Assembly: GCF_003012935.1 (NCBI RefSeq)
Contig: NZ_PUDR01000026.1
Span: forward strand, 1-35,648
Direction: 5' to 3'
Length of the DNA: 35,648 bases
Source: Pannonibacter carbonis
Lineage (GTDB): Bacteria; Pseudomonadota; Alphaproteobacteria; Rhizobiales; Stappiaceae
Each line of letters starts with the position of its first letter. The stretch's first letter is position 1. Positions 1,976 through 30,774 of this stretch are shown here, piece by piece. Made by a program: the position numbers and the translations under genes. The notes below the pieces were generated by a model. The model did no database searches and was not told the origin of the DNA. It was given only the letters and a program-made list of their open reading frames with translations.

Positions 1976-2797
1976 ATGATGGCGGACACGCGCGGACTTA
2001 TGAACGGCAAACGCGGCCTGATCATGGGCGTTGCGAACAACCGGTCGATTGCCTGGGGCATCGCCAAGGCCCTTTCCGACGCCGGTGCCGAGCTTGCGCT
2101 GACCTATCAGGGCGAGGCGCTGAAGAAGCGCGTCGAACCGCTTGCCGAACAGCTGGGCGCCATCGTTGCCGGCCATTGCGACGTGACTGATGCAGCCAGC
2201 ATCGACGAGGTGTTTGCCCATCTGGAAAAGACCTGGGGCAAGATCGATTTCCTCGTGCACGCCATTGCCTTCTCCGACAAGGACGAACTGACCGGCCGCT
2301 ATGTCGACACCACGCCGGGCAACTTTGCCCGCACGATGGACATCTCCTGCTATTCGCTGACCGCTGTCACCCAGCGCGCGGAAAAGCTGATGACCGACGG
2401 CGGTTCGATCCTGACGCTGACCTATTACGGCGCCGAGAAGGTCATGCCGCATTACAACGTCATGGGCGTTGCCAAGGCGGCGCTGGAAGCGAGCGTGAAG
2501 TATCTCGCCGTTGACCTCGGCCCGAAGAACATCCGCGTCAACGCCATCTCGGCCGGCCCGATCAAGACACTCGCCGCCTCGGGCATTGGCGACTTCCGCT
2601 ATATCCTGAAGTGGAACGAGTACAACGCCCCGCTGCGCCGCACGGTCACCATCGAGGAAGTGGGCGATGCCGCCCTGTTCCTGTGCTCTGACCTTGGCCG
2701 TGGCGTGACCGGCGAGATCCAGCATGTGGACTGCGGTTACCATGTCGTCGGCATGAAGGCCGTCGACGCGCCGGACATTTCCGTCGTCAAGGACTGA
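1976..2797 (+). CDS. fabI: Enoyl-[acyl-carrier-protein] reductase (NADH), FabI
   Basis: FabI catalyses the last reductive step of each cycle of type II fatty acid synthesis, reducing trans-2-enoyl-ACP with NAD(P)H. The 273-residue protein has the short-chain dehydrogenase fold and the FabI-specific start GLIMGVANNRSIAWGIA (nucleotide binding, about residues 14-30). The catalytic residues are Tyr150, Tyr160 and Lys167, the last two forming the Y-x6-K spacing of FabI (HYNVMGVAK). SAGPIKTLAASGI is the substrate-loop region that also contacts triclosan in known structures. GGAGAG precedes ATG 1976, and a second ATG follows directly at 1979. fabI followed by a histidine phosphatase, aroC and ribB on the same strand is an arrangement I associate with Hyphomicrobiales. 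Confidence 0.96.
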   Translation: MMADTRGLMNGKRGLIMGVANNRSIAWGIAKALSDAGAELALTYQGEALKKRVEPLAEQLGAIVAGHCDVTDAASIDEVFAHLEKTWGKIDFLVHAIAFSDKDELTGRYVDTTPGNFARTMDISCYSLTAVTQRAEKLMTDGGSILTLTYYGAEKVMPHYNVMGVAKAALEASVKYLAVDLGPKNIRVNAISAGPIKTLAASGIGDFRYILKWNEYNAPLRRTVTIEEVGDAALFLCSDLGRGVTGEIQHVDCGYHVVGMKAVDAPDISVVKD

Positions 2798-2833
2798 TCC
2801 TGTCGGCTGCGGAGCAGGCTGGGACCTCACCGG

Positions 2834-2964
2834 CGTCATCCCGGACGAGCGCCAGCTCGAGCCGGGACCGGAGGGTCGATGTTTCCGTTGTTTCAATGAG
2901 AGAGTAGCCGACAGGCTCTGGCTCTCCGGTCCCGGATCTTCGCTTCGCTGCGTCCGGGATGACG
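2834..2964. repeat. Paired inverted REP-like element (family 1) in fabI downstream region
   Basis: Two related copies face each other. The left copy (2834-2873) starts CGTCATCCCGGACG and ends CCGGGACCGGAG. The right copy (2924-2964) is its inverted, imperfect equivalent, and also carries TCTTCGCTTCGCTGCG, which recurs in the element at 19239. Each copy folds on its own (CCCGG with CCGGG) and the two can pair with each other. The element fills most of the 325-bp gap between fabI and the next gene, where I see no convincing gene. Confidence 0.8.
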
Positions 2965-3122
2965 TGGCGAGCCTGAAAAATACACCCCCGGTCCATTCCC
3001 ATGGGCCGGGGTTTCGTATTTGTGAGGGCCGGTGTGCCAGGCTGGCATTGACAGGGCTGCGGGCGCTCGGGCACAGGAACGCTGCCCGCCCTTCCCGTTT
3101 CCTCCTCACGCTGGATTCGCCC

Positions 3123-3773
3123 ATGTCCACCGGCCTTCCCTCTACCGGCCTCCCCTCTACCGGCCTCCCCTCTACCGGCCTCCCTGATCGCCTCATCTTC
3201 ATCCGCCATGGCCAGACCGACTGGAATGCGGAAGGCCGCATGCAGGGGCAGAAGGACATTCCGCTGAATGATACGGGGCGCGGCCAGGCCCGACGCAACG
3301 GCCTGGCGCTGGCCAGCTTCCTGGCTTCAAAGGGCTGGCAGGCGGAGGCGTTCGATTTCGTGGCCTCGCCGCTGGGGCGCACGCGGGAGACGATGGAACT
3401 CATCCGCGGAGCCATGGGCCTTGATGCGGCGGCCTACGCGCTGGATGACCGGCTGAAGGAGATCACCTTCGGCACCTGGGAAGGCTTCACGGTCGAGGAA
3501 CTGGCGGTCAGTGATCCGGACCGTGTGGCGGCGCGGCGGGCGGACAAATGGGGCTTCACACCGCCGGGCGGGGAAAGCTACGCCATGCTGACCACCCGCA
3601 TCGGCGGCTGGCTCACCAGCGTGGACCGGCCGATGGTGGCGGTGATCCATGGCGGTGTCATCCGCGTGCTGCGCGGGCTGCTGGAGGGGCTGGAACCGGC
3701 TGCAGTTCCGCGCCTCGATGTGCCGCAGGACGTGGTCTATGTCTGGGACGACGGCCGCCTCACGCTGGTGTAG
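3123..3773 (+). CDS. Histidine phosphatase family protein (phosphoglycerate mutase-like)
   Basis: The product is 216 residues from ATG 3123. It has the family signature I-R-H-G-Q-T-D-W, with the phosphorylated His29 in RHG. Further on come SPLGRTRETME (second arginine), the acid KEITFGTWEG, and the second catalytic histidine in VIHGGVIRVL. These mark a cofactor-independent-type phosphatase of the GpmB/CobC/PhoE group. The physiological substrate cannot be told from sequence. The N-terminus is odd: residues 2-21 are four copies of S-T-G-L-P encoded by a 15-bp tandem repeat. The frame is open further upstream to 2964, but that part runs through a palindromic repeat, so I place the start at 3123. 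It converges with the DUF1344 gene, leaving 23 bp between stops. Confidence 0.85.
   Translation: MSTGLPSTGLPSTGLPSTGLPDRLIFIRHGQTDWNAEGRMQGQKDIPLNDTGRGQARRNGLALASFLASKGWQAEAFDFVASPLGRTRETMELIRGAMGLDAAAYALDDRLKEITFGTWEGFTVEELAVSDPDRVAARRADKWGFTPPGGESYAMLTTRIGGWLTSVDRPMVAVIHGGVIRVLRGLLEGLEPAAVPRLDVPQDVVYVWDDGRLTLV
3126..3185 (+). repeat. 15-bp tandem repeat, four copies, in frame
   Basis: Four successive 15-mers of the type TCTACCGGCCTCCCC encode S-T-G-L-P four times directly after the start codon. Copies 2 and 3 are identical. Copies 1 and 4 differ by two bases and one base respectively, consistent with recent slippage. Fifteen bases is a multiple of three, so gain or loss of a unit keeps the reading frame. 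Confidence 0.95.
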
Positions 3774-3796
3774 GGCGGCAGCCGGGCCGTGCCCGC

Positions 3797-4063
3797 CTAC
3801 TGGATCTGCAGGTCGTAGAGCATCTTCTTGGAGCCGTCGACGTCGTAGAAGACGCGCACGAGCTGGCCGGGCTTCAGGTCATCGACGTAGAAATCGACCG
3901 GGAAATGGTAGACCTGACCATCGGTCAGCGTGATCGTTGCGGTTTCCGGGTTGATCTCGGCAATCTTGCCTTCGGCTTCGTCTGCAACAGCTCCCGAGAT
4001 CTGCGCGCCGGCGAGAAAGATAGCAAGGCCAAGTGCGGCCAGCCCCTTGAAAATGGACTTCAT
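3797..4063 (-). CDS. DUF1344 family small periplasmic protein
   Basis: The product is 88 residues from ATG 4063 (MKSIFKGLAALGLAIFLAG...). A longer in-frame start exists at 4120, but the Lys-plus-hydrophobic signal peptide begins at 4063 and ends near AVA-DE, so cleavage after about residue 26 is likely. The mature part of roughly 60 residues has the DUF1344 pattern: E-G-K-I-A-E-I-N-P-E-T-A-T-I-T-L-T-D-G, then a Y-H-F-P stretch and V-R-V-F-Y-D. It should be a small all-beta (OB-like) exported protein. DUF1344 proteins are common in Rhizobiales and have no established function. It stands alone on the minus strand between two plus-strand genes. Confidence 0.75.
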   Translation of the reverse strand: MKSIFKGLAALGLAIFLAGAQISGAVADEAEGKIAEINPETATITLTDGQVYHFPVDFYVDDLKPGQLVRVFYDVDGSKKMLYDLQIQ

Positions 4064-4317
4064 GTTCAACTCCGACTGGGCACCGCAGCCTGCGGCAGCC
4101 AGGACTGATGCTTGCCTCAAACGATCATTCTCATGCCGCAGACGTGATCTGGAACACGGATCCGGCGACTTTATACGTGCCTATATCGGAACCAAAAGGC
4201 GTTTTCACGGCAGCGCCGGAATATCCCGTGCGAAGCTGTAGGCCGTTGGCGAGCAGCGTGCCAAAGTCGGCCCATGTATCGGCCCATGTATCGGCCAGTG
4301 GAAAGGGATCTGCGCGG

Positions 4318-5565
4318 ATGAGGGACGAGGACTTCTATCTGGATCTTCCCGCCTTTGCGGATTTTGGCGGGGTTGCGGATGGCGAGGCCTATCGGTCTGT
4401 TCCCGATGCGTGGCTGGTTGCGGCGGCCGACATTGTGCGCTCGACCGAAGCGATTGCGGCCGGGCGCTACAAGGACGTCAACATGATCGGCGTGGCGGTG
4501 ATTTCCGCCCTGCTCAACCGGCTCGGGCGCGACCGGCTGCCTTTCGTGTTTGGCGGGGACGGCGCGATGGTGTTGCTGCCGGCGTCCGGACAGGCCTCTG
4601 CCGCTGAAGCGCTTGCAGGCGTTGCGCGACTGGCCCGCGAGGCGGCCGGGCTGGAGTTGCGGGTGGCGTTGATCCCCGTCTCTGATCTCAGGGCGGCAGG
4701 GGCCGACATCCGCCTGCGCAAGTTCGAGCTGAGCCCGGGCAACTTCCTCGCCATGGTCAGCGGGGACGGACTGATGCTGGCCGAGCGCTGGCTGAAGGAT
4801 GAGTTGCAGGGCGCGGCCTATCGCATCACGGACCCGAACCCCGCAACACCCGACCTCACCGGCTTTTCCTGCAACTGGGAACCGCTGCGCGCCCGCAATG
4901 GCCGCATCGTGTCGCTCATGGTCCGGACCACCGAAGCTGCCGGACCGGAGGGCCTTGCAGGGTTGATGCGCGGCCTCAGCGACCATGCCGGCGTTGATGC
5001 GCGGGCCAGCGAGCCGCAGGAAGCGCCCGTCCAGGACGAAACACTGCGCATGCGGGCAGTGCCCGATAGGCTGGCGACGCAAGTCCGGCTGTTCACGGGC
5101 GGCAGCCTGTCGCCATTCCTGATCCTGAGGACACTGGTGCTGGTCGCGCTTGTCCGCTTCGCCCGCTGGAGCGGCTGGCGGCTCGGATCACTCGAGCCTG
5201 TCCGCTACATGCGCGAGATGCAGCTCAACACCGACTTCCGCAAGTTCGACGATACGCTGCGGCTGGTGATCGACGTGAGCGAGGCTCAGGCGGAGGCACT
5301 GAAGACGTATCTGGCGCAGGAATACGCGGCTGGCCGTCTCATCTACGGCCTGACCGAAGCCGATCAGGCCTTGATGACCTGCTATGTCTCCGACTTTTCT
5401 GCCAGCCAGCATGTGCATTTCGTCGATGGCGCCAATGGCGGTCTGGCGCTGGCCGCGCGTGACTTCAAGCAGAGGCAGAAGGAGCTGGAACAGGCCCTGC
5501 AACGGCCCTTGCCGGGCGGTCATGCCGGTGGCCAATCATTTGACGCTGCCGCCAAACCCGCCTAG
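4318..5565 (+). CDS. DUF3095 family protein, nucleotide-cyclase-like N-terminus
   Basis: The product is 415 residues from ATG 4318 (MRDEDFYLDLP), preceded by GAAAGGGA about 9 nt upstream. The frame is open 70 codons further upstream to 4108, but that segment includes a 12-bp tandem repeat (GCCCATGTATCG, from about 4271) and overlaps the opposing DUF1344 leader, so I exclude it. The family is DUF3095 (unknown function). The N-terminal half has AADIVRSTEAI-x7-KDVNMIG followed by FVFGGDGAMVLLP. This resembles the metal-binding aspartate and the second strand of class III nucleotide cyclases and GGDEF domains, so a cyclase-like fold is a reasonable inference, but activity is unproven. One hydrophobic stretch lies near residue 270 (LSPFLILRTLVLVALV) and may touch the membrane. 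It ends 39 bp before aroC. Confidence 0.72.
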   Translation: MRDEDFYLDLPAFADFGGVADGEAYRSVPDAWLVAAADIVRSTEAIAAGRYKDVNMIGVAVISALLNRLGRDRLPFVFGGDGAMVLLPASGQASAAEALAGVARLAREAAGLELRVALIPVSDLRAAGADIRLRKFELSPGNFLAMVSGDGLMLAERWLKDELQGAAYRITDPNPATPDLTGFSCNWEPLRARNGRIVSLMVRTTEAAGPEGLAGLMRGLSDHAGVDARASEPQEAPVQDETLRMRAVPDRLATQVRLFTGGSLSPFLILRTLVLVALVRFARWSGWRLGSLEPVRYMREMQLNTDFRKFDDTLRLVIDVSEAQAEALKTYLAQEYAAGRLIYGLTEADQALMTCYVSDFSASQHVHFVDGANGGLALAARDFKQRQKELEQALQRPLPGGHAGGQSFDAAAKPA

Positions 5566-5604
5566 AACCGGCCTGCCTTTCCTGTTGTTCCGTCCGGGCT
5601 GTCC

Positions 5605-6687
5605 ATGTCGCACAATTCTTTCGGCCATCTGTTCCGTTTCACCACCTGGGGCGAAAGCCACGGCCCGGCCATCGGCTGCGTGGTGGACGGCTGCCCGCCG
5701 CTGATCCCGCTGACGGAAGCCGACATCCAGGGCTTCATGGACAAGCGCAAGCCGGGGCAGAACCGCTTCACCACCCAGCGGCAGGAGCCGGACCAGGTGA
5801 AGATCCTCTCCGGCGTCATGATCGACGAGGACGGGGTGCAGAAGACCACCGGCACGCCGATCTCGCTCTTTGTCGAGAACACCGACCAGCGCTCCAAGGA
5901 CTATTCCGAGATCAAGGCGAGCTATCGCCCCGGTCACGCCGACTACACCTATGACGCCAAGTACGGCATCCGCGACTATCGCGGCGGCGGCCGCTCCTCC
6001 GCGCGCGAGACCGCGATGCGCGTGGCCGCTGGCGCTGTTGCCCGCAAGATCATTCCCGGCGTCACCATTCGCGGCGCGCTGGTGCAGATGGGCCCGCACA
6101 GGATCGACCGCGCCGCCTGGGACTGGGCGGAAGTCGACAACAACCCCTTCTTCTGCCCGGACGCGAAGATGGCGGCCTTCTACGCCGAGTATCTCGACGG
6201 CATCCGCAAGGCCGGTTCCTCCGTCGGCGCGGTCATCGAAGTCGTCGCCGAAGGCGTTCCGGCCGGTCTTGGTGCGCCGCTCTATGGCAAGCTCGACCAG
6301 GACATCGCCAGCGCGCTGATGTCGATCAATGCGGTCAAGGCCGTGGAGATCGGCAACGGCTTCGACGCGGCGAGCCTGACCGGTGAGGACAATGCGGACG
6401 AGATGCGCGCCGGTGACACCGCCCCGCGTTTCCTCTCCAACAATGCCGGCGGCATCCTGGGGGGCATTTCCTCCGGCCAGCCAATCGTTGCCCGCTTTGC
6501 CGTGAAGCCGACCTCGTCAATCCTTAACCTGCGCCAGTCCGTCACCCGGCAGGGGGAAGAGGTGGACGTGATGACGAAGGGCCGCCACGACCCTTGCGTC
6601 GGCATTCGCGCCGTGCCGGTGGGCGAGGCCATGCTGGCCTGCGTCCTGGCCGACCATTTCCTGCGCCATCGCGGTCAGGTGGGTTGA
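5605..6687 (+). CDS. aroC: Chorismate synthase, AroC
   Basis: AroC converts 5-enolpyruvylshikimate-3-phosphate to chorismate, using reduced FMN. It is the last step of the shikimate pathway. The 360-residue protein carries all three family signatures: [17 protein letters not shown] near residue 16, the [20 protein letters not shown] block near 123-142, and the C-terminal [13 protein letters not shown] segment. The length is typical of the bacterial enzyme. It lies downstream of the DUF3095 gene and 69 bp upstream of ribBX, all on the plus strand. A small inverted repeat (TTTCAG/CTGAAA, 6688-6704) follows its stop and may be a weak attenuator or nothing. Confidence 0.97.
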
Positions 6688-6756
6688 TTTCAGCGAGACT
6701 GAAAACTCCTCATCTATTTCCTTGCGACTGAATAGGTCCTGCGCTAGGCTCTGCGC

Positions 6757-8076
6757 ATGAGACTGGATCATTGGCTTGCACAGACCGGGGAAAGCCGCAG
6801 CGCCTTTGCGCGCCGCGCAGGGCTTTCGCCTGCCTCGGTCACCGCGCTCTGCAACGATCCCGGTGCCTGGGTGTCGCGGGACATGGCCCGCAAGATCGCC
6901 GAGGCCACGGGCGGTGCGGTAACGCCGAATGATTTTCTCGGCCTATCCACCACGAAGGAGCATCCCGTGTCCCAGGCCCGTGTAGCCGAAGCGATCCGCG
7001 CCTTTGAGCGCGGCGAGATTGTCGTCGTCACCGATGATGACGACCGCGAGAACGAGGGCGACCTGATCGTCGCCGCGACCAAGGTGACGCCGGAGCAGAT
7101 GGCCTTCATCGTGCGCCACACCTCCGGTATCGTCTGCGCGCCGATGACCGTCGAAGCGGCCAAGCGGCTGCGCCTTGATCCGATGGTGGCCAGCAATGAC
7201 GCGCCGCTTGCCACCGCTTTCACCATCTCCGTCGATTACCGGCACGGGCTCACCACCGGCATTTCCGCCGACGAGCGCTGCGCCACCGTGCGCGGTCTGG
7301 CCAATCCGAACGCAGGCCCCTCCGACTTCGTGCGCCCCGGCCACGTCTTCCCGCTGATTGCCAAGGAAGGCGGCGTGCTGATGCGCTCCGGCCACACCGA
7401 AGCTGCCGTCGACCTGTGCCGTCTGGCCGGCCTCGAGCCGGTCGGCGTCATCTGCGAGCTGGTCAATGACGATGGCAGCGTCAAGCGCGGCGCACAGGTG
7501 GCGGAATTCGCCGCCGAGCACGGGCTCAAGATGGTCTCCGTCTCCGACCTCATCGCCTGGCGCCAGCGCACCGAACGCCTGATCGAGCGTGTCAACGAGC
7601 AGCCCGTGCAGACCGTGGCAGGCCCTGCCTATGCCGTCACCTACGCCACGCCCTATGACCCGATGCACCACGTGGCCGTCATCTATGGCGACATTCTCGA
7701 TGGCCGCAACGTGCCGGTGCGCCTGCAGCTGGAATCGGTGCTGGACGATGTCTTCGGCGCTGCCCAGCCGCTCGACGCGGTGATGAAGAGCTTTGCCGAC
7801 CGGGGCCGCGGCGTGATCGTGTTCCTGCGCGAAGGCTCTGTAGGCGTTGCCCGCCAGTCCAAGCGCGCCCGCTCCGATCTGGAAGCGGCGGAAACCGAAG
7901 AGCATGGCTCGGCGCAGGTGCGCCAGGAGCAGTGGCGCGAAGTGGGCCTCGGCGCGCAGATCCTCAAGGATCTCGGCGTCACCTCGATCCGCCTCCTGTC
8001 CTCGCGCGAGCGGCACTACGTCGGCCTGGAAGGCTTCGACATCAAGATCGAGGCGACGGAGATCGCTGAAACCTGA
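6757..8076 (+). CDS. ribB: RibBX: 3,4-dihydroxy-2-butanone-4-phosphate synthase with degenerate GTP cyclohydrolase II domain and N-terminal HTH
   Basis: The long frame codes for 439 residues. Residues 1-60 resemble a Cro/XRE-type helix-turn-helix (SRSAFARRAGLSPASVTALCN). Residues about 71-275 are RibB, with the acidic loop DDDDRENEGDL, the RPGHVFPL block and RSGHTEAAVDL. RibB makes 3,4-dihydroxy-2-butanone 4-phosphate from ribulose 5-phosphate for riboflavin synthesis. Residues about 285-435 align with RibA, but the zinc-binding cysteines of true GTP cyclohydrolase II are absent (the strand reads RLQLESVLDDVFGA). This matches the RibBX class, whose X domain is not a cyclohydrolase. A GTG at 6967 lies 6 nt after a perfect AAGGAG and would start a 369-residue protein without the HTH, while ATG 6757 has no good ribosome site. 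Both forms may be made. No FMN riboswitch fits in the 69-bp gap upstream. Confidence 0.9.
   Translation: MRLDHWLAQTGESRSAFARRAGLSPASVTALCNDPGAWVSRDMARKIAEATGGAVTPNDFLGLSTTKEHPVSQARVAEAIRAFERGEIVVVTDDDDRENEGDLIVAATKVTPEQMAFIVRHTSGIVCAPMTVEAAKRLRLDPMVASNDAPLATAFTISVDYRHGLTTGISADERCATVRGLANPNAGPSDFVRPGHVFPLIAKEGGVLMRSGHTEAAVDLCRLAGLEPVGVICELVNDDGSVKRGAQVAEFAAEHGLKMVSVSDLIAWRQRTERLIERVNEQPVQTVAGPAYAVTYATPYDPMHHVAVIYGDILDGRNVPVRLQLESVLDDVFGAAQPLDAVMKSFADRGRGVIVFLREGSVGVARQSKRARSDLEAAETEEHGSAQVRQEQWREVGLGAQILKDLGVTSIRLLSSRERHYVGLEGFDIKIEATEIAET
6955..6969 (+). promoter_or_regulatory. Strong internal ribosome binding site and GTG start in ribBX
   Basis: AAGGAG (6955-6960), a 6-nt spacer and GTG (6967-6969) lie in frame exactly between the HTH segment and the RibB domain. 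The spacing and the match to the anti-Shine-Dalgarno are better than at the upstream ATG, so translation of the short RibBX form from here is likely. Confidence 0.65.
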
Positions 8077-25790: not shown

Positions 25791-25987
25791 CGGCGCCTCC
25801 GTTCTTCCGCCAAGTTCTTAACCGTGTTTCTTGCATTTCAGCAAAACCGACGCAGCGGAACGCTGGGGTCGCGCGGCCATTAACGGAACCTCAAGGTTAA
25901 GCCGGCACAGTCAAATGCAGCTATTGGGGAAAGATCCCCTTCACAAGTGACCCCGGCGGGACCGGGCCTGTCGGAGTGGCGTTGCGT

Positions 25988-27208
25988 ATGTTTGGCCCCG
26001 TGTATCTTTGCGGAAAGCCGGTCCGGCCGCGCCGGCGCTACCGCCTGCGTCACGCCCTCGCGCTGACGCCCTTCGCGCTTCTGGCGCTTTCCCAACCCCT
26101 GGCCGTGCAGGACGTGTCGGATCTTGTGGCAACACAGGGCGGCAAGCGACCCGAATGGATGGCCTCGCTGGAATCCTCGGCCGCCCCGATGGTGATCGCG
26201 CCGACGCTGGTGCTGGCCGATGCCGGCGCCGGGCGAGGCACAGCACCCGATCCGTCCGTTGTCACCGCAGAGCAAGGCATCCAGTCCAGCGTCATCCGCG
26301 GCCTGGACGAGGTTGTCCGCGAGGCACTACCGACCGAAATCCCGGAAGAAATCCGCATCAACCGTGATCTCAAGGGCGACCGGCACATTTCCATGGCCCC
26401 CGACCGGGCGATGCTGGACCAGGCCTCAGGCTCGGTCTATGCGCTGGCCAGCCTGATCGGCACCGAGACGCAGAAAGAGCTGCCACGCGTGGCCTTCGTC
26501 AAGCCGGAGCCGATGAGCCAGGCAGAAACCAAACAGTTTGCCGCAGCCTCCAAATCCAGCCGGCGCGGCAAGCCGGGCGAGGCAGCGCCGATGGACCTGC
26601 AGCAGGTCATGATGGCGCGCAATGCCGCCGCCGCCAGTTTCTCGCTGGTTTCAGCCTATGCGCCGGAGACGGCGGTGGACACGCGCGACCCGTTCAATGC
26701 CCTGTTCGGGGCGCAGTATGAAGACGACCTGCCGCCGCCGGAGGATCCGAAGAACCCGCATTGGTGGGCGCAGCGGCCGTTGCCGCCGTCCGTCCATGAA
26801 GCCAAGGAATTGCGTTGCCTGGCGGAGGCGATCTATTTCGAAGCGCGGGGCGAGAGTGAGGAAGGCCAGGTGGCCGTTGGCCAGGTGGTGCTCAACCGGG
26901 TCAAGAACCCGGCCTATCCGGACACGGTCTGCGAGGTGGTCTACCAGAACCGGCACAAGCGCAACCGCTGCCAGTTTTCCTTTGCCTGCGACGACATTCC
27001 GGACCGTGTGAGTGAAGGTGCCCCTTGGGCGCGGGCGCAGCGGCTGGCCAAGGATCTCGTCGCCGGGACGCAGTATCTGCGCATGGTCGACGCCTCGACC
27101 CATTATCACGCCACCTATGTGCGCCCCCGCTGGGCCAGCCAGATGTCCAAGCGCGGCCAGGTCGGCCTGCACATCTTCTACAAGACCTATGCGGGCGCGT
27201 GGAACTGA
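25988..27208 (+). CDS. SleB-type cell-wall hydrolase
   Basis: The product is 406 residues from ATG 25988. A GTG at 25976 is an alternative. A basic N-terminus and hydrophobic stretch (RRRYRLRHALALTPFALLALSQPLAVQ) make a signal or anchor, and residues 40-260 are a low-complexity linker. The Hydrolase_2 (SleB) domain fills the last 130 residues: LAEAIYFEARGESEEGQVAVGQVVLNRV, with the catalytic glutamate in YFEARGE, then CQFSFACD and the ending STHYHATYVRPRWA. SleB-type enzymes are peptidoglycan lytic transglycosylases. In non-sporulating Alphaproteobacteria the role is cell-wall remodelling. The upstream 197 bp contains a 12-bp inverted repeat, AACCTCAAGGTT at 25887-25898, of unknown role. Confidence 0.88.
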   Translation: MFGPVYLCGKPVRPRRRYRLRHALALTPFALLALSQPLAVQDVSDLVATQGGKRPEWMASLESSAAPMVIAPTLVLADAGAGRGTAPDPSVVTAEQGIQSSVIRGLDEVVREALPTEIPEEIRINRDLKGDRHISMAPDRAMLDQASGSVYALASLIGTETQKELPRVAFVKPEPMSQAETKQFAAASKSSRRGKPGEAAPMDLQQVMMARNAAAASFSLVSAYAPETAVDTRDPFNALFGAQYEDDLPPPEDPKNPHWWAQRPLPPSVHEAKELRCLAEAIYFEARGESEEGQVAVGQVVLNRVKNPAYPDTVCEVVYQNRHKRNRCQFSFACDDIPDRVSEGAPWARAQRLAKDLVAGTQYLRMVDASTHYHATYVRPRWASQMSKRGQVGLHIFYKTYAGAWN

Positions 27209-27242
27209 GGGGGCTCAGGCTTGCACGAGGCTGAGCCTCTCC

Positions 27243-27397
27243 GCCCCTCTCCCCCCTTGAGGGGGAGATGTCTGCGTCAGCAGACAGAGGGGGGTCTGCA
27301 GCGCTCATGCACAATACACCGTCTAAGCCGACCGACAGGCCAACACCCCCCTCTGCCCCCTGACGGGGGCATCTCCCCCTCAAGGGGGGAGAGGGGC
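27243..27397. repeat. Large extragenic inverted repeat with 28-bp perfect arms
   Basis: GCCCCTCTCCCCCCTTGAGG and its continuation GGGAGATG (27243-27270) recur as a perfect reverse complement at 27370-27397. Inside, TCTGC-GTCA-GCAGA and the CAGAGGGGGGT/ACCCCCCTCTG pair add further stems, so the whole 155-bp unit can fold into one long structure. It fills most of the 269-bp gap between the cell-wall hydrolase and hisC genes. A relative with a shorter stem lies near 28640. Confidence 0.9.
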
Positions 27398-27417
27398 GCT
27401 GCGGCGAATTGGCTGCA

Positions 27418-27471
27418 TCAGCCCGCGACGCGCGAGAAGTCGGCGACGAGACCGGCAGTGTCGCGGATTTC
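27418..27471 (-). pseudogene. Detached copy of the glyS 3' end (17 codons plus stop)
   Basis: Read on the minus strand this segment encodes [17 protein letters not shown] and a TGA, identical in protein to the last 17 residues of GlyS. It matches 28690-28743 in 51 of 54 bases. The three differences (ACC/ACT, GGC/GGT, TCC/TCG) are all third-position synonymous changes. It lies 6 bp after the hisC stop and has no start of its own, so it is a remnant and not a gene. With the true glyS end it makes a 54-bp direct repeat around hisC. Confidence 0.92.
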
Positions 27472-27477
27472 CACCCG

Positions 27478-28533
27478 TCACAATATTTGGTCAATTGCCT
27501 TCAGAAACTGACGGCATTCCTCGGTTGCGCCAATGGTGATGCGGACGAAGTCGGCAATGCGAGTCTTGTTGAAGTGGCGCACCAGGACCGCTTTCTCGCG
27601 GAGACGCTTCGCCAGGTCAGCCCCCTGATGGGCCGGGTGGCGTGCGAATACAAAATTGGCCGAAGAGGACAAAACCTCGAACCCGCGCGAACGAAGCTCC
27701 GCTGTGATCATTTCCCGGTTAGCGATGACCTTGCCACATGTCTCCAGGAACCAGGCCTCATCCTCTATGGCGGCTTTGGCAGCTGCCTGGGCAAGCCGGT
27801 CCAAGGGATAGGAATTGAAGCTGTCCTTCACCCGCTCCAATGCCTCGATCAGCGGCCGCTGGCCAAGCGCGAAGCCAACCCGCAGGCCTGCGAGCGCCCG
27901 GGACTTGGAAAATGTCTGCACCACCAGCAGATTGTCATGGCGCGGAATAAGTGACGCAGCAGTCTCGGCCCCGAAATCCACATAGGCTTCGTCGATCAAC
28001 ACGACCTGATCGGGATGACCTCTGACAAGCTTTTCAATTTCGTCAAGCTGCAGGGCGGTTCCGGTTGGTGCATTGGGATTGGAGAGAACGATGGCACCGC
28101 AGGGGCGATTGTAGTCCGCTATACCGACACGAAATGTGGCATCAAGCGGGACTTCTTCGACTGTGATGCCGAACAGACGCGCATAGGTCTTGTAAAAGCT
28201 ATATGTGATGTCCGGCTGTAGGAGCGGCGCGTCGTGCTTGAGAAGGCCAGCAAAGGCGAAGGCCAGCACTTCGTCCGATCCGTTGCCAACGAAAACTTCT
28301 TCCGATGTCAGGCCAAAGCGGGCGGCAATTGCCTGACGAAGATCGGCAGACGCCGGATCAGGATAAAGCCGAAGGCTGCTGTCTGTCGTAGCAGCTATCG
28401 CATCAAGCACCCGCTGAGAGGGAGCGTACGGGCATTCATTGGTGTTCAGCTTCACCAAGTTTGGAACCTTTGGCTGTTCGCCAGCCACATAGGGTTCCAG
28501 TGTGTGCACTGCGGAGGACCAGAAGCGGCTCAT
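27478..28533 (-). CDS. hisC: Histidinol-phosphate aminotransferase, HisC
   Basis: HisC is a PLP enzyme that transaminates imidazole-acetol phosphate to histidinol phosphate in histidine synthesis, and some members also act on aromatic amino acids. The 351-residue protein has [16 protein letters not shown] (Asp181), the PLP lysine Lys210 in [15 protein letters not shown], and [14 protein letters not shown] at the N-terminus, where the usual family text is NENPYGPS. The sampled GC is about 47-58 percent against about 70 percent in glyS, and codons such as ATA and TTG appear near its end. No other his gene is near. It lies between two direct copies of the glyS 3' end. The ribosome site is weak (GAGA). 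Confidence 0.9.
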
Positions 28534-28614
28534 TCTCTACAGCTCCCTTTTGCTGACGAAACGGATAGCCGCCTGGACACCCAAGCACAATCCCCCAGGG
28601 ATGCGCGCTGCATT

Positions 28615-28656
28615 CCCCCCCCCCCACCCCTCACCCCTCCCCACGAGGGGGAGGGG
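28615..28656. repeat. C11 homopolymer and GC-rich hairpin between hisC and glyS
   Basis: Eleven consecutive C residues (28615-28625) are followed by CCCCTCCCC-ACGA-GGGGGAGGGG (from about 28634), a strong stem-loop. It lies between the glyS stop and the hisC start and could act as a glyS terminator-like structure. The run is also a likely place for sequencing error or slippage. Confidence 0.75.
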
Positions 28657-28689
28657 GGCGGAGAGGCCTCAGCCAGGTTCAGGTCGCGG

Positions 28690-30774
28690 TCAGCCCGCGA
28701 CGCGGGAGAAGTCGGCGACGAGGCCGGCGGTGTCGCGGATTTCGGCGAGCAGGCGCAGGCGGTTGAGGCGCAGGGCCGCGTCGTCGGCGTTGACGAGGAT
28801 GTCAGCGAAGAAGGCATCGACCGGACCGCGCAGGGCGGCAAGCGCCTCCATGGCAGCCTCGAAGTTTTCCCCCTTCAGCGCCTCGGCCACACCGGCCCGG
28901 GCCGTGTCGATGGCGCTGGCGAGTGCGATCTCGGCCGGTTCGCGGAAGTGATCCGCCTGCGGGCGGCCGGAGACGGCGGTGCCGTCCTTCTTCTCTTCCG
29001 CCTTCAGGATGTTCATCGCACGCTTGTAGCCGGCGAGTAGGTTGACCCCATCCTCGGTGGCGAGGAACCGGCCCAGCGCCTCGACGCGGCGCACGACCAT
29101 CAGCAGATCATCCTGGCCGCCAAGGCCGAAGACGGCGTCGATCAGGTCATGACGGGCGCCCTCTTCCTTCAGATGGACCTTGAGACGGTCTGCGAAGAAG
29201 GACAGGAGGTCGTCACGCAGGGCAGCAGCAGCGCCGGCACCGACGCGCGCGGCAATAATGCCCTCGATCAGCGCGCCGAGGTTCAGGCGCAGGCCGTTGT
29301 CGAGAATGATGCGGATCACGCCGAGGGCGGCGCGGCGCAGGGCGAAGGGGTCCTTGGAGCCGGTCGGCTTCTCGTCGATGGCCCAGAAGCCCGCGAGCAG
29401 GTCGAGCTTGTCGGCGAGCGCGACGGCAATGGCCACCGGATCGGACGGCACCCGGTCGGACGGGCCCTGCGGACGGTAGTGGTCCTCGATGGCGGTCGCG
29501 ACGGAGGCGTGTTCGCCCTGGTGCGTGGCGTAGTAGCGGCCCATCAGGCCCTGCAGCTCGGGGAACTCGCCGACCATGCCGGTGACGAGATCGGCCTTGG
29601 CCAGACGCGCGGCCCGGCGGGCAAGATCGGCATCGGCGCCAACGGCAGGCGCAAGCTCTGCGGCGAGGGCTTCAAGGCGCTTCACGCGCTCGCCCTGCGA
29701 GCCGAGCTTCTCGTGGAAGACGATGCCGTCGAGCTTGGCGAGGTTGTCCTCCAGCTTCGTCTTCAGGTCGGTCTCCCAGAAGAAGCGGGCGTCGGACAGG
29801 CGGGCGCGGATGACCTTCTCGTTGCCGGTGATGATGGTGGTGCCGCCATCGGCCGCGATCAGGTTGGAGGTCAGCACGAAACGGTTGGCAAGGCGGCCGG
29901 TGGCCGGATTGCGCAAGACGAAGCACTTCTGGTTGGCGCGGATGGTGAGGCGGATGCACTCGTCCGGGATGGTCAGGAACTCTTCCTCGAAGGTGCCGGT
30001 GAGCACGACCGGCCATTCGACGAGGCCGGCGACTTCTTCCAAGAGGCCCTCGTCCTCGACCAGCTCCAGCCCCAGCGCCATGGCCTGGTTGCGGGCGTCA
30101 TGCAGGATGACGTCCTTGCGGCGGTCGGCGTCGAGGATGACCTTGTGCTTTTCCAGCTTCGGCATGTAGTCGTCGAAGCGGCGGACGGTGAAGTCCTCGT
30201 TGCCGTGGAAGCGGTGGCCACGGGTGACGTTGCCGGCGCGAATGCCATCGACCTCGAAGTCGATGATGTCCGGCTCTTCCGTTTCCGGACCGAAGGTGGC
30301 GATGATCGACTTGAGCGGACGCACCCAGCGCAGCGAGCCCGAGCCCCAGCGCATGGACTTCGGCCAGGGGAAGGTGCGGATGATGCCCGGCATCACCTCG
30401 GCGATGATCTCCGCCGTCGGGCGGCCCGGCTTCTCGATGACGGCGATGTAGAAGTCGCCCTTCTTCGGATCGCTCTGGATGGTGGCCTCGTCCAGCGAGG
30501 CAAGGCCGGCGCCGCGCAGGAAGCCCTGGATCGCCTGGTCGGGCGAGCCGACGCGCGGGCCCTTTTTCTCTTCGCGGGTCGGGCTGGACGCCGCCGGCAG
30601 ACCGGCGATGTGCAACGCCAGACGGCGCGGCGTGGAGAAGGACTTGGCACCCTCGTAGGTCAGACCCGCTTCAACCAGCGCGTTGGTGAGCAGCGACTTG
30701 AGGTCCTCGCCTGCGCGCCGCTGCATGCGGGCGGGGATTTCCTCGCTGAACAGCTCAAGCAGGAGATCGGGCAT
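28690..30774 (-). CDS. glyS: Glycine--tRNA ligase beta subunit, GlyS
   Basis: GlyS is the beta subunit of the tetrameric bacterial glycyl-tRNA synthetase and binds tRNA-Gly. The 694-residue protein begins [18 protein letters not shown], the standard start of the family, followed by [15 protein letters not shown]. The central [12 protein letters not shown] and [22 protein letters not shown] (HD-like) regions and the C-terminal anticodon-binding-type region are present. The alpha subunit gene glyQ is not directly upstream. In related Rhizobiales glyQ, lemA, a DUF2207 gene and glyS often cluster, and lemA and DUF2207 are present here beyond an intervening GGDEF-EAL gene, so glyQ may lie past the right edge. 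The last 54 bp are duplicated beyond hisC. Confidence 0.96.

Follow-up and report, generated by a model that had tools for sequence, protein, structure and literature searches.

The window analysed here, a 35,648-nucleotide stretch of Pannonibacter carbonis DNA that makes up one complete contig, contains a hisC gene lying between two copies of the 3' end of glyS. On the minus strand, intact glyS is followed by a spacer that carries a C-rich palindromic repeat, then by hisC and, 6 bp further on, by the displaced glyS end; beyond this come a short flank, another palindromic repeat and the convergent gene for a cell-wall hydrolase. The individual features are as follows, with hisC designated hisC2.

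28690 to 30774, minus strand: intact glyS, glycyl-tRNA synthetase beta subunit, 694 aa (ORF; 87% to Pannonibacter phragmitetus DSM 14782 GlyS)
28690 to 28743, minus strand: intact repeat copy, the last 17 glyS codons and stop (repeat search; tail comparison)
28619 to 28689, no strand: left spacer, native-like glyS downstream sequence plus a dispersed C-rich palindromic repeat (resembles the glyS downstream of congener G001; the repeat has genome-wide matches at query positions 1315-1378)
27478 to 28533, minus strand: hisC2, an acquired histidinol-phosphate aminotransferase paralogue, 351 aa (TIGR01141; tree; GC 57.3%)
27472 to 27477, no strand: 6-bp spacer from the hisC2 stop to the displaced tail (identical in congener G003)
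27418 to 27471, minus strand: displaced glyS 3' end, matching the intact tail at 51/54 bases (same place in G003)
27393 to 27417, no strand: right flank (CCAATTCGC...) directly beyond the displaced tail (exact pattern found, among five congeneric genomes, only here in the own genome, G000, and in G003)
27235 to 27405, no strand: right palindromic repeat with 61-nt arms, 85% complementary, a member of the dispersed family (repeat search)
25976 to 27208, plus strand: convergent neighbour, cell-wall hydrolase (Hydrolase_2; PF07486, 89 bits), also found after glyS in G001 and G003, marking the other side of the insertion

The existence of the glyS tail repeat is confirmed. A repeat search of the window recovered a direct repeat of 54 nt (27418-27471 versus 28690-28743) with 94% identity and a start-to-start distance of 1272, which is far above chance: 100 windows simulated from a dinucleotide-Markov model gave no ungapped match to the glyS tail better than 37/54, and the best elsewhere in the real window was 31/54. 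The sequence-only reading had described this repeat as beginning 6 bp past the hisC stop, with 51 of 54 bases matching and all three differences at synonymous third positions, and the search bears out the former while the latter (3/3) holds in P. carbonis itself. Its observation that hisC is lower in GC is likewise upheld (57.3% against 64.7% for the window), and GC3 is 63.9% for hisC2 and 88.6% for glyS. It had also reported no integrase in the hisC unit; consistent with this, profile searches detected none in the ORFs that make up the 1.2-kb unit or in the adjoining window genes scanned, and hisC is the sole recognised gene of the unit. No Rfam family was found in the window.

The product of hisC2 passes the HisC model (292.9 bits against TIGR01141, curated cut-off 276.55) and is only 33% identical to the genome's other HisC, encoded on contig C32. 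Genes of the HisC2 type are present in 12 of 61 relatives and, at E <= 1e-100, in 9 of 385 genomes of the class, with the own genome counted both times. In a tree of 28 HisC proteins, the copies of P. carbonis and G003 form a fully supported pair (100/100) whose placement with Sinorhizobium and Shinella is moderately supported (83/71), whereas copies from other genera of the same family form a separate clade (96/99). Because of this tree, the low GC, the rarity in the class and the absence of the gene from three of the four congeners compared (G001, G002 and G004 of G001-G004), hisC2 is regarded as a horizontally acquired second copy that is nearest to Rhizobiaceae homologues. An ordinary local duplication followed by vertical inheritance, with no transfer, would account for the presence of the structure in two species, but it is very improbable in the face of the missing congeneric copies and the foreign tree and composition. 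The sequence-only reading had named universal carriage among close relatives and a HisC tree matching the species tree as the signs of an old duplication; hisC is not carried by all relatives and its tree is foreign, and the proposed transfer thus survives this comparison.

The source of hisC2 was sought in several collections. The homologous gene of Sinorhizobium and Rhizobium adjoins a polyprenyl synthetase gene rather than glyS, and ten loci with HisC2 homologues exhibit varied neighbourhoods with a displaced gene end in none (0/10). The junction between hisC2 and the tail has no exact match in IMG/VR, and phage records yielded only distant HisC and GlyS proteins (both under 60%). Plasmid records similar to the hisC2 unit number 18, none of which covers 80% of it; two Pannonibacter plasmids match only 53 bases, which derive from the dispersed repeat. 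No donor genome turned up in which hisC2 comes after glyS with no second tail.

Among the congeners, G003 carries glyS, hisC (94%), the identical six-base spacer and the displaced tail at the same place, and since both structure and junction recur there, the arrangement is no assembly artefact. Synonymous divergence at rpoB (0.205, 0.355 and 0.303) groups P. carbonis with G003 and then with G001. The latter encodes a GlyS that is 99% identical and is followed by one tail only, with the hydrolase gene next and without hisC2, while G002 and G004 have a different gene behind glyS and no hisC2-type gene. The flanks complicate the comparison. Behind intact glyS, P. carbonis, G003 and G001 have in common CCTGAACC, GCTNAGG and the palindrome start. 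Behind the displaced tail there is no likeness to G001, except that the first seven bases of G003 equal those of G001. In a textbook integration, the right flank and not the left is expected to match the empty site. The glyS downstream of G001 is mostly like the left flank, and G001 is not clearly an empty site. Consequently, the comparison of glyS downstream regions that the sequence-only reading had proposed came out divided: hisC is absent from three of four congeners and the tail of G001 is single, but G001 offers no clean empty site.

At glyS, dS between P. carbonis and G001 is 0.109, compared to 0.356 at rpoB and 0.49-0.87 at most neighbours, and glyS has probably been exchanged between the species represented by P. 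carbonis, G001 and G003. G001 may itself be derived, and because of this probable exchange it is not a clean reference. The glyS gene (28690-30774) is unusually similar among these three genomes, with dS of 0.109-0.146 versus 0.205-0.356 at rpoB. Constraint on codon use may be an alternative cause of the low dS of glyS. An alignment had hinted that the glyS tract stops abruptly, on its upstream side, at the start codon, but this was weakened by the finding that the more distant G006 has part of the leader. Over 25976-30774, glyS abuts the hydrolase gene in P. carbonis, G001 and G003; in G002 and G004 the hydrolase is located at the opposite side of glyS. The interval behind glyS has been rearranged in Pannonibacter, since in three genomes of other genera (G005, G006 and G011) glyS and the hydrolase are 5.5-6.6 kb apart, separated by other genes.

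A comparison of P. carbonis with G003 suggests that glyS and hisC2 share a recent history. Their dS values are 0.109 and 0.177, respectively, compared to 0.435 for the flanking hydrolase and 0.527 for the next gene, and to 0.991 (EAL gene) and 0.679 on the other side. This pattern fits, without proving, a transfer of glyS and hisC2 as one tract by homologous recombination. Low dS also occurs elsewhere in the window (0.036-0.16 at 1976-8076, bar one or two genes). Overall, the synonymous divergence of the window from G003 is highly variable, with values from 0.036 to more than 1, and such a mosaic suggests interspecies recombination.

The tails themselves are informative regarding the origin of the repeat. 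The intact tails of P. carbonis and G003 are identical and that of G001 is one base apart from the P. carbonis tail, whereas the displaced tails of P. carbonis and G003 are identical at only 47/54 sites (7/54 differ). The displaced tail of G003 has four differences, including Asp-to-Gly and Phe-to-Val, and the differences of the displaced copies are all private, with none common to both genomes. The simplest reading of these private differences and amino acid changes is that there was one displaced copy, at first equal to the intact tail, which would have been altered later in both lineages, even though the exclusively synonymous differences (3/3) of the P. carbonis copy are somewhat unexpected under free decay. 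Two claims of the sequence-only reading are therefore not supported. It had held that coding constraint shaped both copies, which fails in view of the G003 replacements and the private nature of the differences, and that one tail probably came from the glyS of another strain, which is not demonstrable at glyS when the intact tail equals that of G003 and nearly that of G001. The same tails are compatible with a local templated insertion, whereby hisC2 would have arrived by some other route and the 54-bp tail would later have been copied past it by template switching during repair; displaced copies whose common ancestor matched the intact tail in full, together with the native look of the left flank, are as one would expect from such an event. 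We nevertheless regard it as improbable, on grounds that come from a second locus.

A scan of 1,786,648 bases, about 37% of the P. carbonis genome, looked for nearby direct repeats of which one copy coincides with the end of a gene. At relaxed settings, the scan returned 68 local repeats, 6 of which have one copy at an ORF end, glyS among them. Apart from glyS, it yielded one clear tail-displacing case, the first of the two entries below; the second is a further flagged repeat.

C29:198540-200127, own genome: second tail-displacing insert, consisting of a pirin gene, an insert and a displaced gene end
C29:99799: flagged repeat at an ORF end, 22 bp

Three more flagged repeats were rejected: C33:117408 lies within a cluster of the dispersed C-rich repeat, while C29:266429, a dispersed repeat, and C1:72464, a repeat of 268 bp, both overlie ORFs that are doubtful. 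In 60 kb scanned of G003, one further flagged repeat proved to be a dispersed palindrome. As a control, 106 loci of relatives (1,424,317 bases) gave no accepted tail-displacing case; this is a non-random sample, as 80 of the 106 are glyS loci, and both of the flagged repeats among its 20 local repeats turned out on inspection to be repetitive sequence.

The pirin gene, identified by PF02678 and PF05726, is followed by a 600-bp insert of 49.2% GC with one small ORF, beyond which lies a displaced copy of the last 72 bases of the gene (67/72). Here, the empty site is preserved in both G003 and G001, where the native downstream sequence is that which follows the displaced tail of P. carbonis. The intact P. 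carbonis pirin gene differs from that of G003 at 23/906 sites, the last three of which are synonymous and fall within the final 20 bases (chance of three or more there 0.012, calculated post hoc). At these three sites, G003 equals G001 and the displaced tail of P. carbonis keeps their bases. Since the displaced tail is native precisely where the intact end is new, the native pirin end was displaced while a new end arrived with the cargo. No Pfam or PADLOC match and no integrase was found for the insert ORF. Counting the own genome, 2 of 397 genomes of the order encode its protein; a relative with 55% identity is encoded by a Komagataeibacter plasmid beside an Imm45 immunity gene, and the cargo may be an orphan immunity protein. 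The pirin locus is an integration-type footprint, and given this insertion with its empty sites, the integration footprint proposed by the sequence-only reading for glyS is reasonable, although an attL/attR layout at glyS is not clean. A templated insertion, in turn, leaves pirin unexplained, as there the gene end is new and the displaced copy native, and it provides no reason for the copied piece to end with the stop codon at both genes.

Dispersed C-rich palindromic repeats lie on both sides of the hisC2 unit (27235-27405 and about 28619-28673). The family has 97 further matches in the genome to a 1.5-kb query and is also present on Pannonibacter plasmids. The palindromes were considered as the mover by way of a RAYT transposase and rejected, as Y1_Tnp (PF01797) had no matches in the own genome (positive control, 5/14 genomes). 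Recombination between such REP elements may account for a loss in G001.

The reading we favour, with a probability of roughly 45%, is that hisC2 became lodged behind glyS by one recombination event with a join inside the glyS 3' end. Donor DNA would bring a glyS end with hisC2 behind it, and the donor glyS end would pair by homology with resident glyS. The far end of the donor would then be joined, without long homology, into resident glyS 17 codons before its stop, either by homology-facilitated illegitimate recombination or by a single crossover of a circle. In this way glyS would be kept whole, with its end supplied by the incoming DNA, and the resident end would remain behind hisC2 as a non-coding scrap. 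The underlying base is observed, namely the repeat, the foreign hisC2, its presence and absence in congeners, the common junction and the order of events at pirin; from it we infer a mechanism of homology plus an illegitimate join, with glyS having followed the course of pirin. We count in support the lack of an integrase and of a larger relative, the two unrelated targets and the common glyS-hisC2 tract, and against it that nothing marks the intact glyS tail as foreign. Homology-facilitated illegitimate recombination is reported to take place in competent bacteria and, less often, in E. coli, where its rate is low (PMC3240628), and it has been proposed for Vibrio cholerae immunity-gene arrays (PMC5361080). 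The parallels consist of one homologous anchor, one non-homologous join, an added foreign gene, old material pushed downstream and no integrase; unlike in that process, the displaced piece at glyS is a short housekeeping-gene tail.

The recombination reading has a serious competitor, though one we judge somewhat less likely, in a CIME-like remnant. An element targeting the glyS 3' end would have inserted there site-specifically, re-supplied the gene end from its attP and later been reduced to hisC2 and two att repeats, or it would have been non-autonomous from the start with an integrase acting in trans. The arrangement of intact gene, cargo and displaced end at two genes is what such an element leaves, and at pirin the end was re-supplied with synonymous differences only, the ORF was restored and the empty sites are clean. 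Both inserts are flanked by att-like direct repeats from the target 3' end (54 bp at glyS, 72 bp at pirin), short and ending at the gene end, and neither contains integrase or conjugation genes. That both repeats sit at gene 3' ends is explained more naturally by an integrase than by a random join. Yet no integrase accompanies either unit, and a larger form is absent from the G003 copy and from all sampled genomes. The end sequences of the two targets are also unrelated, which would require two specificities, and the glyS flanks do not act as a new attL and a native attR. Furthermore, a degenerate glyS-tail pattern matched 173 of 397 genomes of the order, with a double match in the own genome only; this draw left out G001 and G003, and the displaced copy of G003 would not match the pattern. 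The corresponding pirin-tail pattern is too narrow to inform, with 4/397 genomes matched and the own genome matched twice. The suggestion of the sequence-only reading that a larger element shrank to its cargo is not supported: neither a larger element nor an integrase came to light, nor did a second glyS tail in the other 396 genomes sampled.

CIMEs of 1.2-13 kb are described for Streptococcus salivarius, seated at the 3' end of rpmG, rpsI or fda (PMC7563491). The two settings have in common a cargo from ~1.2 kb upward, no recombination genes, flanking repeats of a gene 3' end and an intact gene, whereas P. carbonis differs in its single-gene cargo, its two unrelated targets and the lack of a related ICE/IME with the same repeats known here. 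A second point of reference is provided by tRNA genes. Genomic islands at their 3' ends are integrated by tyrosine integrases, and as in those islands, a displaced gene end lies at the far side of the insert and the target gene is kept whole; the glyS case is distinct in its protein-coding target, its 1.2 kb and its lack of an integrase. A literature search returned no report of integration targeted at glyS. While CIMEs and insertions that displace a gene tail are familiar events, what appears to be new is the use of glyS and pirin as targets together with the minimal cargo.

Tail-displacing insertions are usually credited to tRNA-targeting integrases on large islands. In P. carbonis, by contrast, two inserts, 1.2 and 0.6 kb long and each with a single gene, are found at two unrelated protein-gene ends in one genome; it appears that foreign genes were added one at a time behind the 3' ends of ordinary genes without an adjacent integrase. 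It is conceivable, albeit unlikely on present evidence, that the lineage has a general integrase-less route for single foreign genes into the 3' ends of unrelated protein genes. The cargo would bring a synonymous replacement end, the native end would be left as a displaced repeat, and the gene and its displaced tail would then serve as two homology arms with which the cargo could pass to any relative possessing the gene; such passage between relatives is suggested by the low-divergence glyS-hisC2 tract in two species. The pirin locus renders the mechanism directly testable, and should the footprint prove recurrent, a hidden class of single-gene acquisitions would come to light in simple scans for displaced gene ends.
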